Origin: a virus
Direction: 5' to 3' (one strand)
Virus record (IMG/VR): IMGVR_UViG_3300036799_000072
Location: 1-20,131 of that record
DNA: 20,131 nucleotides
The position numbers and the translations under genes are program-made. The notes below the pieces were generated by a model. That model was not told where the DNA came from. It did no database searches and worked only from the letters and a program-made list of their open reading frames with translations. This document shows, piece after piece, positions 1 to 13,635 of this stretch; positions within the stretch are counted from its first letter, which is position 1, and each line of letters opens with the position of its first letter.

Positions 1-1019
1 ATCGGGGGGGGGGGGGGGGCCCCCCCGGGGGGCGCCGGGGGCATACCCGGGGCCCCCGGGGGTCCGCCCGCCGCAGCGAGGCCAGCAGGCGGCCCGCCAG
101 CCGGTCCGGGCATGGGCCCGGGGCGTACTGGGCCCCCAGCCATAGGCGGGGGCGCGGGCGGTCCTGCGGGGGGCGCCGGGGGCGGTCCCGGGGGAGGTTT
201 AGGCGGGGGGGGCGGGGGCGTCGCCGCATCGCCTTTGGGCGCATTCGTGCCGGTCGGCGGGGGCGGGCCATGGCGGACACTATGGGTAATGCTCGCGGCC
301 TGTTCCGCTGCGCCCTGCGGGTAGCCTGCGCCGGTCAGCGCGCGAATCATCGCCTGCTGTTCCGCGTACTGTTCGCTGGCAATTTGAAACTGCGCCTGCG
401 CTTGGTGTAGCGCGTCGGGGTCCGGGTAGGCGGTATGCTGAATCGGTTCTACGCTGTCGTCCTCTAGCAGGTCGGTTAGCTGGTCCTCGTCCAGCCCCCG
501 GTAAAACTCCATAACCTGTTCCGGGGCGCTGTCCCAGTAGCATTTCATAATCCCGACTTTCTGGATCAGCGCGTCTTTGAACCATGTATAGAGTTCCTGC
601 CAGCCCGAATTGCGCTGATAGAACAAGTAGTTTAGATATTCGGTCGCCTGCTGCGCCTCGTCCTCGTCGCCCTCTTTGCGCGGGGTGAATTCGAGAACGG
701 ACGGGCCCGCCGTGAAAATCGACATCAGCGCCGGTAGCAGCCATTCAATCGTGTCTGATACGTCGGTCGACACTGCCGCGCTACGGTCGGGGATATCCGG
801 GGGCGCGAGATCATCCTCTGCGAGCCCCAGATAATACGACATGGCTTTATTACGTTCTGTCGCGAGGTCGTCGCCGCAAAAATTCGCGGCCTGCTGGATT
901 TCGCGGTCCGTAATCGCCCGTATGTCGTCGTCCGTCATCCGGTCTTTAGTCTTAGGTTCCGTAAAGGTTTCATGCGTAACCGTTACGTCCTCTACGTCCT
1001 GTTTAACTATGCTGGGCAT
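1..1019 (-). CDS. Phage portal protein, N-terminal part (truncated by window edge)
   Basis: The reading frame starts at the ATG at 1019 and stays open to the left edge, so about 339 residues are present and the C-terminus is missing. Portal proteins form the dodecameric ring at the capsid vertex through which DNA enters and leaves. The first 230 or so residues look like a P22/T7-type portal N-terminus: an acidic helical start, then WLLPALMSIFTAG, a Glu/Asp-rich stretch, LNYLFYQRNSGWQELYTWFKDAL and KVGIMKCYWD. From about residue 250 to the edge the protein becomes an extreme Pro/Gly/Ala low-complexity tract. At the nucleotide level that tract contains runs of 16 G, 7 C and 6 G at 4-32. The gene begins 1 bp after the terminase large subunit stop, the usual TerL-portal order. 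The family call is good; the Pro-rich insertion is unusual, and the homopolymers there may hide sequencing errors. Confidence 0.75.
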   Translation of the reverse strand, partial: MPSIVKQDVEDVTVTHETFTEPKTKDRMTDDDIRAITDREIQQAANFCGDDLATERNKAMSYYLGLAEDDLAPPDIPDRSAAVSTDVSDTIEWLLPALMSIFTAGPSVLEFTPRKEGDEDEAQQATEYLNYLFYQRNSGWQELYTWFKDALIQKVGIMKCYWDSAPEQVMEFYRGLDEDQLTDLLEDDSVEPIQHTAYPDPDALHQAQAQFQIASEQYAEQQAMIRALTGAGYPQGAAEQAASITHSVRHGPPPPTGTNAPKGDAATPPPPPPKPPPGPPPAPPAGPPAPPPMAGGPVRPGPMPGPAGGPPAGLAAAGGPPGAPGMPPAPPGGAPPPPP

Positions 1020-1020
1020 G

Positions 1021-2457
1021 TCAGGCCGCCGTCAGTTTCGGATAGTTCAATTTGCCCCCCCAGCCGCCTAGCTGGTTCGTTATGTACTGCGAGGACAGCG
1101 CCCAGTACCTGCAACTGTCCGAACCGTGACTGGCCCAATCGTGCTCAGGCGTTATCGAAAATTCGCCTAGCTTTTCGTTATATTTGCGCCGGTAGTTCGT
1201 CAGGCATTCAATCCCGCGCTGGCATTTTTCCGCGTCAAACCAGACCGTCGGCAGGAAAACGCGACAGGCGTGTATCCCTTCGTCCAGCGGCAGATTCGGG
1301 GCTATTTCGAAATTGATGCCCAGATTCTGCGCGACCTCTAAACGGCTTTTCCCGGTGCCCAGTTCGCGGACCGCGATATCGTGCGGGGCGAAATGCTGGC
1401 CGTACACATAGCGCTTATCCGCGAGGACGCGCGCGTAATGCTGTAGCCCTTCGCCTGCCGCCTCGTAGTAGTCAATCGCGCGCCGTTCGCCGCCGATATG
1501 CTGGGCGAACCAGATAGCGGTACTGTCACCCATGCCTAGGTCCCATATCGTATGGACAGGCAGCGCCGGGTCATACGGAACCCGCGTTATACGGCCCTCA
1601 AAATAGGCCGTTTCCATTTCCTTTTTATAAATCGCGCCCGGAATCTCGATCACGTCCCAGCGTCCCGACAGCAGCGCGCGCCGCGTCATTTCGTCCAGCA
1701 GTAATAGATTCGCCTCGTAGTCCGCGCCCAGATACGGGTTATCGGCCAGCCGCGCGGGTATGAACCGGCGCGACATAACGCGCTGGCTGCCATCGGCTAA
1801 TGTAACGATAAGGCGCTGTAGTGTTGCACTACCATCGTCTTTGATACCCCAGCGTTCGCGTACCCATTTATGCCCGCGCCCGCCCGGGTTGCAGTTCGCG
1901 CGCATCAGACAGCGCAGATTCGGGTTCGACGTGCGCAGCCGTGAAAACAGGTACGTGTAGCAGACGTCAGTCGCCCATTGGGTCAGTTCCTCAAACGCGA
2001 TGAACTGGAATTCGAACGACTGCCAGCGGAACCGGTCGTCCTCTGTCTGCATGTAGGACGTCGCGATTTCCGCGCCGCTGGGGAACGTCCAAATATGGTC
2101 TGTCTTGTTAAAATCCGCGCCCGGATAAGCCAGCGGATAGATTTCGTGCATGCGCGCCTCTAGCTCGCGCAGTTCGGGAAAGGTCGGGCGAAAGATAATC
2201 GCCCGATAGTCGGGCTGTAGAACCGCCTGCTGCCAGAGGCCCATCGCGTCGATAACCAGCGCGTCGGTTTTGCCCCCGCCTGCGGCCCCCCCGTATAGGA
2301 CCTCGTGTTCATTCGCCGCGAGGTATTCCGCCTGTTTGGGCGTCGGGGTCCATGTCGCGCCCTGCGGGTCCTCGTCGTCGTCCTCTAGCGCGACGTCGTC
2401 CCAGCCTTCCGGGTCCCGGCTAAGGCTTAGACGGGGGTTCGACAGCCTGCGCGGCAT
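1021..2457 (-). CDS. terL: Terminase large subunit (packaging ATPase/nuclease)
   Basis: 478 residues, normal for TerL. This motor pumps DNA through the portal and cuts concatemers. The Walker A motif GGAAGGGKT is at residues 56-64, the Walker B segment QFIAFEE at about 151-157, and a C-terminal RNase H-like nuclease domain begins near HTIWDLGMGDSTAIWF with Asp306 as the likely first metal ligand; the next acidic residue is near 329 (AIDYYEA). The N-terminal TPKQAEYLAANEHEVLYGG is the typical adenine-recognition lead-in. The start at 2457 overlaps the small subunit gene by 38 bp, as is common. A perfect copy of the phage-wide 15-bp palindrome lies inside the gene at 1818-1832 (codons around residues 209-213). 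Confidence 0.93.
   Translation of the reverse strand: MPRRLSNPRLSLSRDPEGWDDVALEDDDEDPQGATWTPTPKQAEYLAANEHEVLYGGAAGGGKTDALVIDAMGLWQQAVLQPDYRAIIFRPTFPELRELEARMHEIYPLAYPGADFNKTDHIWTFPSGAEIATSYMQTEDDRFRWQSFEFQFIAFEELTQWATDVCYTYLFSRLRTSNPNLRCLMRANCNPGGRGHKWVRERWGIKDDGSATLQRLIVTLADGSQRVMSRRFIPARLADNPYLGADYEANLLLLDEMTRRALLSGRWDVIEIPGAIYKKEMETAYFEGRITRVPYDPALPVHTIWDLGMGDSTAIWFAQHIGGERRAIDYYEAAGEGLQHYARVLADKRYVYGQHFAPHDIAVRELGTGKSRLEVAQNLGINFEIAPNLPLDEGIHACRVFLPTVWFDAEKCQRGIECLTNYRRKYNEKLGEFSITPEHDWASHGSDSCRYWALSSQYITNQLGGWGGKLNYPKLTAA
1797..1832. promoter_or_regulatory. Paired 15-bp palindromic sites inside terL
   Basis: GTAGTGTTGCACTAC at 1818-1832 is a perfect match to the repeated phage operator. 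A degraded partner, CTAATGTAACGATAA, sits exactly 21 bp away at 1797-1811 and matches the consensus at 10 of 15 positions. Read leftward, the 36-bp block matches the paired sites at 11898-11933 at 29 of 36 positions, including part of the spacer, so it looks like the same module rather than a chance palindrome. It lies well inside an essential gene, so it may be a transcription-blocking site or a partition site rather than a normal promoter operator. Confidence 0.6.
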
Positions 2458-2980
2458 AGTCCTGTTCTACCGCTGTGTCCTCGCGTTCCATCGTTTCCAT
2501 GGTCGTTTCCATGGTCGCTTTCATCGGGTATTCAATCGGGCGCGCGTTCAATGCGTCCGCGCCCGGGGGCGTCGTGTCGACCAGTTTCGATTCCGGTTTC
2601 CATTTCGACGGGCAGCGATTCACTAACCACCATTTGCAGGCCGCGACGTCGGGCGGGAAATACTCGCGTTTGATTGCCTCGCGCCCGTCTACCTGAATTT
2701 TCATTTCATGTTCGAACCCGACGCAGCGCTTGTAGAGCGCCTCGACGACCTCGTAGTCCGCGATCACGCGCCCCGCGTCTATCGCGGCGTCGAACTGCGG
2801 GTAAAGGTGCCGCCATTTGTTGAACGTATGGCGGTCCGCGCCCAGATTGCGGGCGATTTCCGCATGCGACAGACCCAGCAGCGCGAGCTTTCGCGCAAAC
2901 ACGACAAAACGCGGGTCGAACGATCCCGGGTCCTCGCGTTCATAGATAATTTTTTCGGTCAGGTTTCGACTAAGCGTCAT
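2420..2980 (-). CDS. terS: Terminase small subunit
   Basis: 186 residues. It recognises the packaging site and loads the large subunit. The N-terminal half carries a helix-turn-helix (LALLGLSHAEIARNLGADRHTFNKW). This is followed by the segment seen in many small terminases: a helix with DYEVVEALYKRCVGFE and then PPDVAACKWWLVNRCPSKW. The C-terminus is acidic and Met/Glu/Thr-rich, as expected for a tail contacting TerL. The ATG at 2980 is preferred over longer readings because it overlaps the upstream stop codon as ATGA. The 3' end overlaps terL by 38 bp. Confidence 0.88.
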   Translation of the reverse strand: MTLSRNLTEKIIYEREDPGSFDPRFVVFARKLALLGLSHAEIARNLGADRHTFNKWRHLYPQFDAAIDAGRVIADYEVVEALYKRCVGFEHEMKIQVDGREAIKREYFPPDVAACKWWLVNRCPSKWKPESKLVDTTPPGADALNARPIEYPMKATMETTMETMEREDTAVEQDYAAQAVEPPSKP

Positions 2981-3477
2981 CGCGGGATACCGCCAAACTT
3001 TTGTCCTGCCAGCATTTGCAGCAGGTTTTGCTGGCCGGTCGCCGCAGTCAATCCTGCGGGCTGCGCCATCATAGAGGTCTGCTGCGGAACGAAATTGATA
3101 GGCTGGCCGCTGCCCGGACGCGCGCCTGCCGGGGCATGCGGGGGGGTCTGCTGGTCTAGCCCGCCTGTCTTGCCTGCCGCGCCCGCCAGCGCCCCCCAGT
3201 TCGGGCCCCCGCCCGCGTCTTTCATCGCTTGGGTCCAATCCTGCGCGTCCTGTACGCCCTGAATGCCGCCTAACGCCGCTGGCTGCATCTGGACGCCCTG
3301 ATAGTTCGCCTGCTGGCCCCCGGGCATCGTGAACTGAGACGCGGCCCCGCCATCGGACGTAAAAGGCGACGCGACCGCGCTCGCGTCCGCGCCGCTGCCG
3401 AAACGGTCTTTCAGGCTGGACCAGAGGCTATCCATACCGGCGCCGCTGCCGTCTGCGCCGCTCGCATTGCTACCCAT
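2977..3477 (-). CDS. Gly/Ala/Gln-rich phage protein of unknown function
   Basis: 166 residues, rich in Gly, Ala, Gln, Met and Pro, with no membrane segment and no motif I recognise. Only a short N-terminal stretch (MDSLWSSLKDRFGSG) looks able to form an amphipathic helix; the rest appears disordered. Its stop codon overlaps the small terminase start as ATGA, so the two are translationally coupled. A GGGGG ribosome-binding site precedes the ATG. The position between an Ig-like-domain protein and the terminase suggests a virion or assembly role, such as a scaffold, decoration or head-associated protein, but that is inference. Confidence 0.75.
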   Translation of the reverse strand: MGSNASGADGSGAGMDSLWSSLKDRFGSGADASAVASPFTSDGGAASQFTMPGGQQANYQGVQMQPAALGGIQGVQDAQDWTQAMKDAGGGPNWGALAGAAGKTGGLDQQTPPHAPAGARPGSGQPINFVPQQTSMMAQPAGLTAATGQQNLLQMLAGQKFGGIPR

Positions 3478-3486
3478 GGCGACCCC

Positions 3487-4275
3487 CTAGGTAAAGGTCA
3501 CGCTAGCCGTGCCGGATACCGTGCCGCTGGTCGCGGTCAGGACGACGCTTTCCGGGACCGTGTCGACGACGTCGACCGCGAGCGTCCCATCTGCGGCTGT
3601 CGTGCCGCTGGCAGGCGTCGGGCTTGCCGTGCCCATATCGCAGGTCATCGACAGAGGCGCCGCCATCGGGGCGCTGTTCTGGTCCAGCACGGTAAAGCGA
3701 ACCGTGTTAGCCGCTGCGCCATCGGCCAGCGCGCTATCGGCTACGACTGCGCCACTAATGCTGGTCACGCGCGAGGCGCCGTCGATTGCCGCGTAGGCTT
3801 TGCGAATCAGCCCGACCGCGATTTCCTGCGCGATGCCCGACGCGTAGACCTCTATTTCGGTCGCGTCGCCGCTGGTAATCGCTTGTTCGATTACGGCAGA
3901 CATGGCCGTCAGGTATTCCGCATTGATGGTTTGCGGATACATGCGCAGGTCCGCGACCGGGTCCGCGCTGGTCGTCGCCGGATTACCGGGAATGCCCGGG
4001 GCGGTTCGTTCTGGCAGGGTCGGGGGAACGCGTCCGCTGCGCCATGCGAGGCGGATAGCTTCGTTGCGCAGGTCTGCGGGACTGATTGGATAGATAGGCG
4101 CGCTGCCGGGTTCGCCGTTCGCCGCTGCGCGCGCTGCCTCTGCGTCCAGATAGGGGCTCGCCGCTGGCGGGGGCATGTCGCCCGGGGCGCCGGTCGGACC
4201 GACTGCGGTCGTCGCGGGGGCGGTCGGGGCGGGTCCCGGTGCCGGGGGGATTTCCTGCGTTTGCGGGTCGCTCAT
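3487..4275 (-). CDS. Ig-like (Big_1-type) domain protein, probable virion component
   Basis: 262 residues in three parts. Residues 1-60 are Pro/Ala-rich and probably disordered. About 60-160 is helical (SPADLRNEAIRLAWRSGRVPP, then AEYLTAMSAVIEQAITSGDATEIEVYASGIAQEIAVGLIRKAY). About 175-262 is an all-beta segment (VRFTVLDQNSAPMA ... GTTAADGTLAVDVVDTVPESVVLTATSG ... ASVTFT) with the rhythm of bacterial Ig-like Big_1/invasin domains. Such domains decorate phage capsids and tails and can bind carbohydrate weakly. It is the first gene after the candidate late promoter and terminator. Its GGAGGG ribosome-binding site lies directly after the terminator T-tract. Function is inferred from domain type and position only. 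Confidence 0.75.
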   Translation of the reverse strand: MSDPQTQEIPPAPGPAPTAPATTAVGPTGAPGDMPPPAASPYLDAEAARAAANGEPGSAPIYPISPADLRNEAIRLAWRSGRVPPTLPERTAPGIPGNPATTSADPVADLRMYPQTINAEYLTAMSAVIEQAITSGDATEIEVYASGIAQEIAVGLIRKAYAAIDGASRVTSISGAVVADSALADGAAANTVRFTVLDQNSAPMAAPLSMTCDMGTASPTPASGTTAADGTLAVDVVDTVPESVVLTATSGTVSGTASVTFT

Positions 4276-4290
4276 TTCGGGCCGCCCTCC

Positions 4291-4322
4291 AAAAAAAAAC
4301 GCCCGCTATTGCGTAGCGGGCG
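4291..4322 (-). terminator. Intrinsic terminator in the late leader (tR'-like)
   Basis: A 9-bp stem CGCCCGCTA/TAGCGGGCG (4300-4308 and 4314-4322) with loop TTGCG is followed, reading leftward, by nine T. It lies between the candidate late promoter and the first late gene, and the next gene's ribosome-binding site begins straight after the T-tract. As placed it should stop leftward transcription before the late genes unless polymerase is made terminator-resistant, which is what Q proteins do. Confidence 0.9.
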
Positions 4323-4395
4323 ATTGTGAAAAACGAGGGGTTGATTCTGCATCGAACCGAAAGGCCCATTGATGGAACCTATCGAATCAGGCCGG

Positions 4396-4425
4396 ATTAT
4401 AGGCGGTTTTGTTGACCGTCCCCAA
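4396..4425 (-). promoter_or_regulatory. Candidate late promoter (leftward, pR'-like)
   Basis: Reading leftward there is a perfect -10 hexamer, TATAAT (4401-4396), with TTGGGG (4425-4420) 18 bp upstream as a weak -35. A start near 4389 would give a leader of about 65 nt before the terminator hairpin. A GGTCAA copy lies in the promoter spacer and two more, as an inverted repeat, lie just upstream. The arrangement Q gene, promoter, terminator, late genes is the lambdoid late switch. Confidence 0.6.
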
Positions 4426-4454
4426 AGACTTTATTTTGACCATTTCGGTCAAAA
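4412..4454. repeat. TTGACC/GGTCAA repeats around the late promoter
   Basis: TTTTGACC (4434-4441) and GGTCAAAA (4447-4454) form a perfect 8-bp inverted repeat with a 5-bp spacer. A further TTGACC is at 4412-4417, inside the spacer of the candidate late promoter. The hairpin overlaps the stop codon of the Q-like gene. It could be a weak terminator for that gene (no T-tract follows) or, together with the third copy, a binding element for the Q-like protein. Confidence 0.5.
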
Positions 4455-4877
4455 CGCATGCTGGTAAAGGCCCAGCGGTTCGTTTTCGGGACGTTGCAGG
4501 CGCGCGGCCCGGTTGATTTCGTCCAGCCGGATAGCGGCCCGATACGCGCGTTTGCGGAACGTGCGCAGCCGCTTATAGATTGCGTCGTCGGATAGCGCGC
4601 AGGCGTCCGATAACTCTTTGACGCTGCGGGCTGGAAACAGGTAGTAAATCAGGAAGGTTCGCCGCGTATCGTCGTCGGGCTGGGCATTGATTGCCGTGTT
4701 GAACAGCGACATTTCAGAGGACAGCCAAACGACCGGCGCGTTACGCAGTTTGCCGGGTTGCAGGCGGGCCAGAATGCCCTTTTGCATCGGGGGCGCTATC
4801 AGACCGTGGGCGCGATGCCATGCGGCCCAGCGCAGACAGAATAGGTGTAACTGCTGGTCGCTCAAGGTTTCGCGCAT
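4449..4877 (-). CDS. Q-like late antiterminator
   Basis: 142 residues. The layout resembles the phage 82-type Q family: an N-terminal WAAWHRAHG segment, a middle LPGxLRN-like stretch (LQPGKLRNAPVVW), and a C-terminal sigma-region-4-like helix-turn-helix (DDDTRRTFLIYYLFPARSVKELSDACALSDDAIYKRLRTFRKRAYRAAI). Q proteins bind near the late promoter, join paused RNA polymerase and let it pass terminators. The ATG at 4877 is chosen because GGAGG lies 8 nt upstream; the longer ATG at 4892 has no ribosome-binding site. It ends the parA operon and is followed at once by a TATAAT promoter and an intrinsic terminator, which strongly supports the assignment. A simple HTH regulator is the alternative. Confidence 0.68.
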   Translation of the reverse strand: MRETLSDQQLHLFCLRWAAWHRAHGLIAPPMQKGILARLQPGKLRNAPVVWLSSEMSLFNTAINAQPDDDTRRTFLIYYLFPARSVKELSDACALSDDAIYKRLRTFRKRAYRAAIRLDEINRAARLQRPENEPLGLYQHAF

Positions 4878-4920
4878 GGGTCGTTCCTCCATACGAGAAT
4901 GTAGCGCGCAGGCGACCTGT

Positions 4921-5133
4921 TTACAATCGTTCCGGGCTTTCCTGTTCGATCCATTCCCATTGGTAATGGACCCGCGCGAGGCGTTCGCGGGCCGCCTGCG
5001 GGTCCATTCCGACCAGCCAGCGGATTATGGGCGCGGCCCGCGTACAGCGCCATGGCTGGCCCGGGCCCTCGCGCACATAGACCGCGCCCGCGTCAAAATG
5101 CGGGGCCATCACGCGCAGGATTTTCTGTTCCAT
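4921..5133 (-). CDS. Small conserved phage protein (APHF...AAPIIRW type)
   Basis: 70 residues. The pattern APHFDAGAVY ... CTRAAPIIRWLVGMDPQAARERLARVHYQWEWI matches a small uncharacterised family I have seen in many temperate phages, often in the stretch before the late antiterminator. No membrane segment or catalytic motif is visible. The start at 5133 overlaps the upstream gene by 41 bp and the stop lies about 40 bp before the Q-like gene start, so it belongs to the same leftward operon. Function unknown. Confidence 0.7.
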   Translation of the reverse strand: MEQKILRVMAPHFDAGAVYVREGPGQPWRCTRAAPIIRWLVGMDPQAARERLARVHYQWEWIEQESPERL

Positions 5134-5338
5134 GGTTCATCAGTCGCTCGCGGTCCGTGCGTAGCTGGGCCGCGATGGTTTCGAGTAGTTCGGGCAGAAC
5201 CGCGAGCGTCGCCGCGTCTGCCTGTACGGCAAAGCCCGGGCCCAGTTTGCCGTTCGTCAAAATCAATAGCACGCCGGTACTTTCGGCCTGTTCCCGGCAG
5301 TAGGTCGCGAGGTCGTCGTATTTGCCCGGGCCGTTCAT
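5093..5338 (-). CDS. Hypothetical phage protein
   Basis: 81 residues from the ATG at 5338, whose ATGA overlaps the stop of the upstream gene; the longer in-frame start at 5389 would run deep into that gene. The sequence is mixed: a helical start (KYDDLATYCREQAESTG), a central strand (VLLILTNGKLGPGFAVQAD) and a leucine-rich helix (LAVLPELLETIAAQLRTDRERL). No family recognised. It sits in the tightly packed leftward operon between parA and the Q-like gene. Confidence 0.7.
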   Translation of the reverse strand: MNGPGKYDDLATYCREQAESTGVLLILTNGKLGPGFAVQADAATLAVLPELLETIAAQLRTDRERLMNHGTENPARDGPAF

Positions 5339-5715
5339 GGTTCCGCCCGCGCTGCGCGGTCCAGCAGGTCTGCTAGGTCTAGCCCGCATTCGTCGCGGAT
5401 TATGTCGCCTATCTGCGCTATGCGCGTCGCTTCAAATTCCACGCGTTCGCGATAGTAGGCGGGCGCGTCGTCGAACTGCTGGACGAACGCGCGTAATTCG
5501 ATCAGGCCGCCCAGCAGTAGCAGGTTATCGCCATTGCGGGCGATTTCGTCCTCTATCGCGTTCGCGCGAACGCGCGCGGCGTCCACACATTCCTGATAGC
5601 TATGTTGTCGCCCGCGCGCCATGCCCGCGTCGCGCATAATCGCCAGCAGTAGCATAAGGGCGGAACTGTCCACGACTGCGACCCGCAGGCCGTTGTCGTC
5701 GTCGGGTTTGTTCAT
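5335..5715 (-). CDS. Hypothetical helical phage protein
   Basis: 126 residues, mostly predicted helix (VDSSALMLLLAIMRDAG, ECVDAARVRANAIEDEIARNGDNLLLLGGLIELRAFVQQF), with an acidic C-terminal helix ending in DLADLLDRAARAEP. No motif or family recognised. A GAGGAC ribosome-binding site precedes the ATG at 5715. The stop overlaps the next gene as ATGA, so translation is probably coupled. Part of the parA-to-Q operon. Confidence 0.75.
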   Translation of the reverse strand: MNKPDDDNGLRVAVVDSSALMLLLAIMRDAGMARGRQHSYQECVDAARVRANAIEDEIARNGDNLLLLGGLIELRAFVQQFDDAPAYYRERVEFEATRIAQIGDIIRDECGLDLADLLDRAARAEP

Positions 5716-5724
5716 GTCGTGTCC

Positions 5725-6099
5725 TCACCAATTGACGTATTCTCGCGCCGGGTCGCCGTCCGGGCGACGTCTGCCGGTCGTCGGGTCGCGGTGCCATCCC
5801 CCGGGTTCGTCCTCGCCGTCGCGGGTCGTCCATTCGGCCAGCGCCCGCAGCGCGTCCGCGTAACTCTCATAGCACCATCGCCGCTCATAGCCCCAGCGAT
5901 CAATGCCCGCCAGTATCGCGTAGGTGAACCTCAGTTTGGTAATGCAGGCGTCCTGCCCGTCCGGGAATATGACGTAGTCCGTATAGCCGTTCGCCGCGCA
6001 TATGTCGGGCCCAGTGTCAGCGGTCGCGGTCGCTGCGACTTCCTGCATGATAGCGACCGCTGCGCGTAGCCGCGTTAGCAGCAGTTCGTCGTCGCTCAT
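5725..6099 (-). CDS. Hypothetical phage protein
   Basis: 124 residues starting at MSDDELLLTRLRAAVAIMQE. The ATG at 6099 is chosen because it forms an ATGA overlap with the membrane protein gene upstream; the longer open frame to 6315 has shadow-like Arg/Pro/Gly composition. The N-terminal third is helical. The middle has aromatic residues (NGYTDYVIFPDGQDACITKLRFTYAILAGIDRWGYERRWCYE) and the C-terminus is Asp/Arg/Gly-rich. No family recognised. Confidence 0.7.
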   Translation of the reverse strand: MSDDELLLTRLRAAVAIMQEVAATATADTGPDICAANGYTDYVIFPDGQDACITKLRFTYAILAGIDRWGYERRWCYESYADALRALAEWTTRDGEDEPGGWHRDPTTGRRRPDGDPAREYVNW

Positions 6100-6566
6100 A
6101 GAGCGACCCCTGATAAATGCTGCTGGACGTGTTCCGCTGCCTGCGCGACGCGAAACGGCTGGACGCGCCGGACGAGTGCCGCCGTATCGTAGCCCATCGA
6201 CGTCGCGCGCCATAGATGGACCTGTAGCAGCAGGAACGGCTGGACCCAGAGAACCCAGACCGCGAGGACGCCCATTTCGACCGCGAGGCCCGTACCGGAC
6301 AGATAGACGCCCCATAACCAGCTAGCCGTAACAATCGCATAGACGACCAGCGGCCCCGCGCAGATTGACGCTTTTTCCGCCCAGAATGCGAATGCGTCGC
6401 GACTGCGGCAGCGTTCAATAAACGCCTCTGTTTCGTGCGGGTCGCATAACGGCGCGAGTAGGCAGGCCATGCCCGAATGGACCCGGTAAATGAACGCTGC
6501 CATTTCGATGCCGCGCAGATACCAGCCAAAAATCCAGTCGAAAATCCGGTCTAACATTCTATCCAT
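6096..6566 (-). CDS. Small membrane protein
   Basis: 156 residues with hydrophobic segments around residues 70-95 (ICAGPLVVYAIVTASWLWGVYL) and 95-118 (GLAVEMGVLAVWVLWVQPFLLL), so probably two membrane helices; the aromatic N-terminus (IFDWIFGWYLRGIEMAAFIY) may associate with the membrane. The rest is cytoplasmic-looking with charged helices. A GAGGG ribosome-binding site precedes the ATG at 6566. It follows the RHH gene by 14 bp. Function unknown; a role in superinfection exclusion or lysis is possible but nothing in the sequence decides it. Confidence 0.72.
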   Translation of the reverse strand: MDRMLDRIFDWIFGWYLRGIEMAAFIYRVHSGMACLLAPLCDPHETEAFIERCRSRDAFAFWAEKASICAGPLVVYAIVTASWLWGVYLSGTGLAVEMGVLAVWVLWVQPFLLLQVHLWRATSMGYDTAALVRRVQPFRVAQAAEHVQQHLSGVAL

Positions 6567-6580
6567 GGGTCTGCCCTCGT

Positions 6581-6982
6581 TTATTGGGCGCGCGCGCGTT
6601 TTCTGGCTGCCGCCCGGGTCGCCGCGCGTCGCGCGTCGCGTTTCGCTTGTGCCGCCGCGCGGTTTTTTTCGACCTGTTCGCGCGCTGCGACCTCTGCCGC
6701 TTCCTGTTCGCGCAAATGTTCAAAATGCGCCGCGATAATGCGCTGTAAATACATCGACCGGCTATAACCGTATTCTGCCGCGCGTCGGTCCAGTTCGGGA
6801 ATCATGTCCGGCTGTAAATTGACCATCACGCGCTGGCGCGGCTGTTCCAGCCGGGGCGCGCGCCCGACGCCTGCGCTGCTGCCGTTACGTTCGCTGCGCG
6901 CGTCGTGCGCTGCCGCTTCAATTGCTGCCTGTTCCGCGTCCGGGTCAAGTTGCGGGACCGCTGCGGGTTTGGTGATTGCCAT
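6581..6982 (-). CDS. Ribbon-helix-helix DNA-binding protein, ParB-type centromere binder
   Basis: 133 residues. A clear RHH domain lies at about 51-90: the strand QRVMVNLQPDMIPELDRRAAEYG supplies the ribbon and first helix, and YSRSMYLQRIIAAHFEHL the second helix. The N-terminal 50 residues are acidic and probably flexible. The C-terminal 40 residues are an Ala/Arg/Lys-rich, coiled-coil-like basic tail. The gene starts 9 bp after the parA stop. In type Ib partition systems an RHH protein binds repeated centromere sites, stimulates ParA and represses the operon promoter. The palindrome cluster at 7660-7738 just upstream of parA is its likely target. Part of the N-terminal tail may stimulate the ParA ATPase, as in ParG. 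It could also be a plain transcriptional regulator. Confidence 0.75.
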   Translation of the reverse strand: MAITKPAAVPQLDPDAEQAAIEAAAHDARSERNGSSAGVGRAPRLEQPRQRVMVNLQPDMIPELDRRAAEYGYSRSMYLQRIIAAHFEHLREQEAAEVAAREQVEKNRAAAQAKRDARRAATRAAARKRARAQ

Positions 6983-6991
6983 TTTCTTACC

Positions 6992-7642
6992 TTAGATCAA
7001 TGCTTCAATAAAACCGTTTATCTCATTCTGGGCGGTTCTGTCCAGTGGCTTGTATTCCTGCAACGTCAAACCCAGCGCGGCAGCGCGGGAAATGGACTTG
7101 CGCTTGACAATTTGCGTTGTCAATACCTCGAACTGTTTCGATTCGTTAAGCATGTCGCGCGCGTCGCGATTATCTGGGCTGTCGTAATCCGGGTCCGCGC
7201 CATTGATAACCGCATAACACGGCAACGAACGGTGACGGATTTTATTCATTTCATGAATCAGTTTTATAAATTGATCCAGCGTCCAGAGGTCGGGCGCGGC
7301 AGGCCCGAACGGCGCGACCAGTAACTGGCTAACTAGCAGCGCCTGCCGCAGCGCCTGCGTATCGCGCCCGCCCGCGTCGATCACGACGTAATCGCAGTGT
7401 TTCGCGCGGTTCTGCACGACGCTTTGCAGGCCCTTGGCAGTCGGGACCAGTTCATTAGCGACTGGCTCGCGGCCTGCCGTCTGAACCCGGTTGATTAGCT
7501 GCTGGGTCGTCGTCGCCTGTTCGTCCGCGTCCAGAATCAGCGTTTTGTAGCCGCGTTCCGCGAGCCCCAGCCCCAGATGCGTCGCCAGCGTCGATTTTCC
7601 GACGCCGCCCTTGGTTTGGCCTATCGTAATGATGCGACCCAT
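6992..7642 (-). CDS. parA: ParA-family partition ATPase (type Ib)
   Basis: 216 residues, the short form without an N-terminal DNA-binding domain. The deviant Walker A box KGGVGKST is at residues 11-18 with the signature lysine at 11. The second box reads DYVVIDAGGRD, a variant seen in many plasmid ParA proteins, and LLVAPFGPAAPDLWTLDQF follows. ParA moves plasmid copies apart by ATP-dependent binding to the nucleoid. The ATG at 7642 has a GGGGG ribosome-binding site; a longer frame to 7699 would run through operators and is rejected. It is the first gene of the leftward operon leading to the Q-like gene, so partition and late control share one transcript. Confidence 0.88.
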   Translation of the reverse strand: MGRIITIGQTKGGVGKSTLATHLGLGLAERGYKTLILDADEQATTTQQLINRVQTAGREPVANELVPTAKGLQSVVQNRAKHCDYVVIDAGGRDTQALRQALLVSQLLVAPFGPAAPDLWTLDQFIKLIHEMNKIRHRSLPCYAVINGADPDYDSPDNRDARDMLNESKQFEVLTTQIVKRKSISRAAALGLTLQEYKPLDRTAQNEINGFIEALI

Positions 7643-7672
7643 GTATCGACCCCCTTTCGTTGGTGTAACACT

Positions 7673-7678
7673 ACTATA
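7673..7678 (-). promoter_or_regulatory. Candidate -10 of the leftward parA promoter
   Basis: TATAGT, 5 of 6 to the consensus, lies between the palindromic sites at 7660 and 7681. No good -35 is visible 16-18 bp upstream. A start near 7666 would give a leader of about 25 nt. Binding at either flanking palindrome would block it. Confidence 0.45.
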
Positions 7679-7708
7679 GCATAGCGTTACGTTACGCATT
7701 TTCTAGTG

Positions 7709-7736
7709 TTGCACTAGCGTGTCTTAGTGTTACACT
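7709..7736 (+). promoter_or_regulatory. Candidate rightward promoter embedded in two palindromes
   Basis: TTGCAC (7709-7714, inside the 7703 palindrome) and TACACT (7731-7736, inside the 7724 palindrome) are spaced by 16 bp and could serve as -35 and -10. The same arrangement recurs at 19795-19822. Both hexamers are weak by consensus (3 of 6 and 4 of 6), so an activator or partial use is possible. Confidence 0.42.
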
Positions 7737-7772
7737 ACGCATGTTCTAACAAGGGTTACAGAGGGGTTGCAG

Positions 7773-13284: not shown

Positions 13285-13635
13285 CTAGTCCTCCGGATGA
13301 AACAGGCCCCTGTTCGCTTTCGTCCATTTGAACAGTTCGACGGTTCGCCGTCCTATGACTTGACGCACGGCCAGCGGCCCGTCGTCCCCGACCGCTAACA
13401 ATGTTTCGTTCGCTTTCGTCCATTTGAACAGTTCGACGGTTCGCCGTCCTATGACTTGACGCACGGCTAGCGGCCCGTCGTCCCCGACCGCTAACAATGT
13501 TTCGGCTAGCATGCCTAACAGCAGCGTAACAGCGCAGGTTTGCGCATAGCGGGCCGCGCTCGCGCTCTGTTCGGGCGGTCGGTCGTCCAGAATCGAATCC
13601 AGCAAACTGCCAAAATCATCGAATGGTTTGTCCAT
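13285..13635 (-). CDS. Hypothetical protein with internal 32-residue tandem duplication
   Basis: 116 residues. An N-terminal acidic part (DKPFDDFGSLLDSILDDRPP) and a hydrophobic helix (TCAVTLLLGMLA) are followed by two copies of a 32-residue unit that begins ETLLAVGDDGPLAVRQVIGR and ends VELFKWTKAN. The tail is RGLFHPED. Without the duplication the protein would be 84 residues. The two copies are identical in amino acids, and at the DNA level differ by one synonymous base. Family unknown. Confidence 0.75.
   Translation of the reverse strand: MDKPFDDFGSLLDSILDDRPPEQSASAARYAQTCAVTLLLGMLAETLLAVGDDGPLAVRQVIGRRTVELFKWTKANETLLAVGDDGPLAVRQVIGRRTVELFKWTKANRGLFHPED
13312..13503. repeat. 96-bp tandem direct repeat inside a gene
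   Basis: Copy 1 is 13312-13407 and copy 2 is 13408-13503. They differ only at 13372 (C) versus 13468 (T), a synonymous leucine change. The period is a multiple of three, so the reading frame is kept. The near identity indicates a very recent duplication, or an assembly artefact. Confidence 0.95.

Follow-up and report, generated by a model that had tools for sequence, protein, structure and literature searches.

The question raised by this locus is how transcription reaches the late genes of a virus in which an intrinsic terminator stands between their sole promoter and the first of them. The window, by which we mean the whole stretch of 20,131 nucleotides that was analysed, comprises positions 1 to 20,131 of the IMG/VR virus record IMGVR_UViG_3300036799_000072. 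A sequence-only reading had proposed that positions 4,291 to 4,877 hold a compact lambdoid late switch, composed of a Q-like gene, a TATAAT promoter and a terminator ahead of the terminase genes. The core of that proposal is well supported, given the Q21-like predicted fold and the co-varying site layout described below, while its Q82-like and lambdoid details are not, and we put the probability that the locus is a Q-type processive antitermination switch at about 85%.

The whole switch is on the minus strand, and the genes that concern it are these:

6992–7642, minus strand: ParA-like ATPase (PHROG 164, E 8e-39), heading a series of co-directional genes, the last of which is the Q-like gene
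4449–4877, minus strand: Q-like gene, 142 aa, encoding an N-terminal helix and loop region followed by a C-terminal sigma-R4-like helix-turn-helix (HTH)
3487–4275, minus strand: first late gene, 262 aa, with a C-terminal Big_1 Ig-like domain (E 4e-11)
2977–3477, minus strand: late gene of 166 aa, function unassigned, conserved in the clade
2420–2980, minus strand: TerS, terminase small subunit (PHROG 309, E 1.5e-28)
1021–2457, minus strand: TerL, terminase large subunit (PHROG 979, E 4e-49)

As had been read, the first late genes are an Ig-like protein and then the terminases (in the order Big_1 protein, 166-aa ORF, TerS, TerL), and no lysis genes were found between the promoter and the terminases. 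The description of the switch as lambdoid is unsupported, the terminase sharing less than 60% identity with each of the phage records it matched; at the DNA level there was no match among the phage records. The start of the Q-like gene is likely 4877, although 4892 is possible (ORF 4449–4892). The gene order from parA to the Q-like gene is conserved within the window's own clade and is not general to the switch, and the earlier suggestion that the two genes share one transcript may hold in so far as gene order in this one clade points to it.

Several observations concern the surrounding sequence. The listed start of parA, 7699, lies within repeats and the ATG at 7642 is more likely, which would leave 7643–7760, with its 43-bp direct repeats, as an operator or centromere region. 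The 15-bp palindrome GTAGTGTTRCACTAC is found at about ten places in the window (1818, 7660, 7703, 7724, 11919, 14535, 18390, 18658, 19789 and 19810), giving 17 strand-matches at three or fewer mismatches against 0.22 expected; three copies are just upstream of parA and one is inside TerL, and, like those of phage-plasmids, they may be dispersed sites for partition or for a repressor. An ORF at 13285–13635 carries the stretch ETLLAVGDDGPLAVRQVIGRRTVELFKWTKAN twice in tandem, a recent duplication, and the long G run at positions 1–20, the start of the contig, is probably an assembly or sequencing artefact.

Between the end of the Q-like gene and the first late gene we recognise the following elements:

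4448–4454, minus strand: half-site A, TTTTGAC, overlapping the stop codon of the Q-like gene
4434–4440, minus strand: half-site B, GTCAAAA, paired with A in inverted orientation and lying 39 bp from the -10
4420–4425, minus strand: weak -35-like hexamer, TTGGGG, with an 18-bp spacer to the -10
4410–4416, minus strand: half-site C, GTCAACA, a direct repeat of B, 24 bp downstream
4396–4401, minus strand: promoter -10, TATAAT, with predicted transcription start at 4389
4376–4381, minus strand: putative pause hexamer, TAGGTT, -10-like, at about +9 to +14 and 35 bp from half-site C
4291–4322, minus strand: intrinsic terminator, a 9-bp stem at 4322–4300 (7 G-C) and a T-run of nine T at 4299–4291

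Half-sites A and B form a perfect palindrome at 4434–4454, TTTTGACC-GAAAT-GGTCAAAA, inside which the Q-like gene ends, and the exact form TTGACC-N5-GGTCAA occurs once in the window. The third copy of TTGACC/GGTCAA, at 4412–4417, overlaps half-site C. Such repeats had been noticed earlier and said to surround the promoter; the three copies are placed between the gene and the promoter, the third in the spacer, and this three-half-site arrangement was matched in none of 500 shuffles of the region. A perfect -10 does follow closely on the HTH gene, at a distance of 47 bp rather than the 48 bp first given, and our predicted transcription start falls at the same position as before, 4389. There is a single TATAAT in the window against 4 expected by chance, and the hexamer by itself therefore proves nothing. 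The letters of the -35-like TTGGGG are identical in two relatives (L007 and L005). The strong 9-bp terminator directly before the first late gene was correctly read: it ranks best among the 13 terminator-like sites in window positions 1–7500 and adjoins the ribosome-binding site of that gene; the predicted leader is about 98 nt long. A different pause hexamer, TTCGAT (compare AACGAT of lambda), was dropped, since it has no A at position 2 while TAGNNT is present in every clade member. The elements named by the sequence-only reading were confirmed; it had missed the pause hexamer, the role of the third half-site and the spacing rules.

The order seen in the window, with A facing the inverted B and C, then the -10, the -10-like pause hexamer and the terminator, is kept in about 14 divergent relatives, with identity down to about 26%. 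A blind search downstream of the gene for an inverted pair plus downstream direct repeat returned the same geometry for every conserved group, TGTNNAC ... GTNNACA, in which A and B are 5–8 bp apart and C follows B by 15 bp or by 24–25 bp, depending on the group. Dinucleotide shuffles equalled the layout in at most 2 of 500 per group. The half-site letters themselves vary by group: TTGAC/GTCAA in the window, and elsewhere TAGAC/GTCTA, GTGAAC/GTTCAC, GTGCGG/CCGCAC, GTATAG/CTATAC, GTAAAC/GTTTAC, TGTCAAC/GTTGACA, TGGAAAC/GTTTCC and TGTACGG/CCGTACA. Differences between half-sites correlate with differences in the recognition helix (r 0.43, p 0.007), and the correlation extends to the N-terminal region (r 0.40, p 0.04), which leaves specificity confounded with shared descent. 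In the relatives, too, the terminator lies between the promoter and the first late gene, and a further promoter would not fit in the space that is left. A few groups escape a strict T-run rule, although their hairpin is visible by eye. Three relatives (L014, L018 and L020) have a small extra ORF between the Q-like gene and the half-sites, and hence the site need not overlap the stop codon of that gene. The three-half-site layout is absent in L023, L057, L059, L067–L070, L088–L091 and L098. In L023 and L088–L090, which are without A, B and C, TAGTAT precedes TAGGTT or GAGGCT (NANNNT) by 11 bp, ahead of a terminator, and this is possibly a simpler form of the switch.

Measuring the layout across groups gives two fixed distances and one that varies. 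From A/B to the -10 it is 38–40 bp in both layouts, and from C to the pause hexamer 35–36 bp, while the distance from C to the -10 takes two values, 15 (as in the window's clade) or 23–24. Counted from the start of C, NANNNT (the -10 letters A2 and T6) is present at C+35/36 in 9 of 9 groups, and no other NANNNT offset between 28 and 59 is found in more than one group. Where C comes 15 bp after B it coincides with the -35 (TNNACA, spacer 16–17); in the window's clade C lies in the spacer between -35 and -10, and the pause hexamer is TAGGTT, TAGTGT or TAGGCT. The pause hexamers of some groups keep just two or three of the six -10 letters. Given that A/B-to-(-10) and C-to-pause are fixed and C-to-(-10) is variable, two modules, A/B with the -10 and C with the pause hexamer, appear to have shifted by about 9 bp relative to each other in evolution; on the tree, the long layout requires at least two origins.

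All four loci that were examined after this rule had been formed obey it, with the -10 at 15 and the pause hexamer at 35. They are L071 (TAAAAT at 15, AAGGCT at 35), L096 (from a new genome; -10 GAAAAT, pause hexamer CAAGTT), L097 (likewise from a new genome; -10 TAAAAT, pause hexamer TAGTCT) and L112 (TAGAAT at 15, TAGGCT at 35, B to C 25; read by eye). The preset script missed the site of L097 because its B is weak; inspection by eye then located it. Both L071 and L112 come from the same genome search as some of the training groups, but were unused in forming the rule. For Xanthomonas phage PBR31, TAGACT was preferred to TATACT as the -10 since it agrees with the other groups, a choice that is not independent evidence.

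Which protein would act on such sites? Pfam, PHROG and NCBIfam give the Q-like protein no assignment, and its best PHROG matches when searched alone are weak (0.25–0.33). The Q families of the literature are PF06530 (Q21), PF03589 (lambda Q) and PF06323 (Q82) (PMC7171158). A profile search of the gene product against them, which had been proposed along with a Q82-like layout, was run and matched no family: PF06530 matched none of 21 members at E≤1, nor did it match PBR31 and two other records when these were searched, PF03589 found no match among the 21 members, and PF06323 is absent from the families matched by any of them. The Q82-like label falls with this result, the nearest solved fold being that of Q21 and then, at weak scores, that of AlpA. 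PHROG 79, 'anti-termination protein Q-like', was matched by four members of the 21-member scan with a best E of 0.012, which we take as a lead only, and a search of PDB chain sequences with the Q-like protein matched neither a Q protein (Q21 included) nor AlpA. As judged by sequence, the Q-like protein is a separate family, outside the known Q families.

An AlphaFold (AF2) model built with 18 relatives is of fair quality (pLDDT 78, pTM 0.71); an earlier model from 5 sequences was poor (pLDDT 58) and was set aside. Aligning the AF2 model by VIA-align, the top seven matches are all Q21 (Z 7.6–9.8 over 98–118 residues), the best alignment of the predicted model having Z 9.8 over 114–118 of its 142 residues at 12–13% identity. 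Behind these come sigma region-4 domains (Z 6.7, about 70 residues), as is to be expected because the C-terminal half of Q21 resembles that domain (PMC6606751). The first four Foldseek matches are Q21 and AlpA with weak E-values, AlpA standing at ranks 3–4 (E about 0.7, TM 0.26–0.29). In its predicted fold, then, the Q-like protein looks like a Q protein, closest to that of phage 21.

From the DNA elements, the spacings and the predicted fold we infer a role for the Q-like protein as binder, together with pausing, loading and read-through, in the following way. The Q-like protein would be produced earlier, from the gene just upstream. RNA polymerase would start at 4389, using a promoter whose -10 is perfect and whose -35 is poor, and would stall after about 24 nt, with sigma region 2 re-binding there to the -10-like hexamer TAGGTT. 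This expected position, +24, is close to that of the pause of phage 82, near +25. Unaided, the polymerase would terminate at 4300 at the end of the leader of about 98 nt. We propose that half-site C, between the -35 and the -10, is the loading site (QBE), to which the Q-like protein would bind with help from a pair of molecules on the A/B palindrome. Once loaded, it would let the stalled polymerase read on beyond the terminator, through the Ig-like and terminase genes and those that follow. As expected of Q-type switches, the sequence has an initial transcribed region with a -10-like element at a constant position relative to the putative site, a putative binding element embedded in the promoter (C in the spacer or on the -35) and an intrinsic terminator between the promoter and the first late gene; with that terminator between the sole promoter and the late genes, read-through is required. 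A fixed distance from site to pause together with a free distance from site to -10 would be expected if the protein loads onto a sigma-stalled polymerase, and would not be expected of an ordinary activator.

That A/B keeps its distance to the -10 suggests a further action when transcription starts, with A/B as an activator or holding site. The likeliest division is that A/B works during initiation and C on the stalled complex. One protein may do two jobs, a pair on A/B (about -54) activating the promoter with the weak -35 and a single unit on C antiterminating, a reading that we consider possible but less likely than not. A rival explanation is that the protein is a classical late-gene activator of the Mor/C or Ogr kind, a dimer of which, on A/B near -54, recruits polymerase to a bad -35, the terminator just ending an early transcript. 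Such an activator would account for the constant 38–40 bp between A/B and the -10 in both layouts and for the poor -35 of the window, and there are weak profile matches to Mor (E 0.21, confined to the HTH) and, at E 0.3, to the 'late transcriptional activator' PHROG 532. However, with a terminator downstream of the promoter, activation without read-through would stop short of the late genes, half-site C and its constant spacing to the pause hexamer are left unexplained, and among the top fold matches of VIA-align, all of them Q21, Mor does not appear; we consider this explanation improbable.

We give far less credence to a repressor or autoregulator that would sit on A, B and C over the promoter and keep the late genes off until its removal. 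Such a protein would suit the groups in which C comes 15 bp after B and coincides with the -35, but in the window's clade C is in the spacer and A/B upstream, the pause hexamer and terminator are given no role, and the fold and gene order match Q. Least credible is coincidence, in which an ordinary HTH gene would happen to lie ahead of a promoter and terminator that have nothing to do with it: one TATAAT or one terminator does not exceed chance expectation, but the same spacing recurs, its half-site letters changed, across about 14 divergent groups, among them the loci examined after the rule was formed. Antitermination is the reading we retain, and the switch is real and conserved and very probably works like Q.

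The nearest known system is phage 21 Q (21Q) with its promoter PR' (PMC6606751), which is alike in the predicted fold, in the gene lying directly upstream of its own promoter, in direct-repeat sites, in a -10-like pause sequence within the first transcribed bases and in a terminator before the late genes. Unlike it, the window's family does not match PF06530, and where the QBE of phage 21 consists of two direct repeats 8 bp apart, there are here three half-sites, inverted and direct, with 15 or 24–25 bp between the direct pair. From the loading site to the pause hexamer the distance is about 26 bp in phage 21 (which we derived from the positions -21 and -13 and the bubble at +3 to +15; PMC6606751) against about 35 here, about one helical turn further, and the loading geometry must therefore differ. 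AlpA of Pseudomonas aeruginosa (PMC7969949, PMC9371919) is comparable, being a sigma-R4-like HTH antiterminator with its element between -35 and -10, a -10-like pause and a terminator ahead of the first gene; it differs in having a single binding element, bound by one protomer, in serving a host cell-death operon and in lacking an upstream palindrome. GafY and GafZ of the Caulobacter gene transfer agent (PMC11150451) switch on a structural gene cluster by activation and antitermination, as is proposed here; GafZ has a sigma-like HTH, and the -35 is poor. There, however, the jobs are split between two proteins, whereas here one protein may use both sites, and the GafZ palindrome is between -35 and -10 rather than upstream.

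In lambda PR', the pause hexamer AACGAT comes 12 bp after the start of the -10, as it does in the 15-spaced groups, but lambda Q is of a different family (PF03589, unmatched here), with a long leader and with the lysis genes first. We noticed no three-half-site layout in lambda; a palindrome, TTGCCA-CGGA-TGGCAA, lies between the end of Q and PR' (L094, about 1017–1032), with no matching direct repeat by eye.

Close relatives of the Q-like protein are about 90% identical (L003–L005), others are mid-range at 48–58% (L006, L007, L028 and L030), and the distant ones, at 26–42%, include L014–L022, L042–L044, L072 and phage PBR31, the only named relative, whose copy is independently annotated as antiterminator Q. 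The carriers are many phages and prophages, many in Burkholderia-related bacteria, and uncultivated phages. Of 398 genomes sampled from the Burkholderiaceae, the family of a Paraburkholderia genome, 22 have the gene, in prophages; wider samples are sparse, with a match in 4 of 399 genomes of the order and 1 of 369 of the class, at thin coverage. Comparing 12 window genes, synteny from parA to TerL is confined to the window's clade, and PBR31, L014, L020, L042, L043 and L072 share only the Q-like gene and, in some cases, a remote terminase. Of two scans of genome contigs, the first gave no match and the second one decayed copy, a frameshifted Q-like gene of Paraburkholderia translucens without a downstream switch (L041, 5917–6300). 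One 80-kb IMG/VR contig (L021 and L022) has two copies of gene and switch about 40 kb apart, either two prophages or a tandem.

What is new here is the protein family, as defined by sequence, and the layout of its DNA sites, while the mechanism is of a known kind. The family adds to the three Q families of the literature one with a predicted Q21-like fold, and it offers many matched pairs of protein and site with differing specificities. The two site layouts of one switch form a natural experiment for telling the distance that counts in antiterminator loading, and the sequence data point to the distance from site to pause, rather than that from site to promoter.
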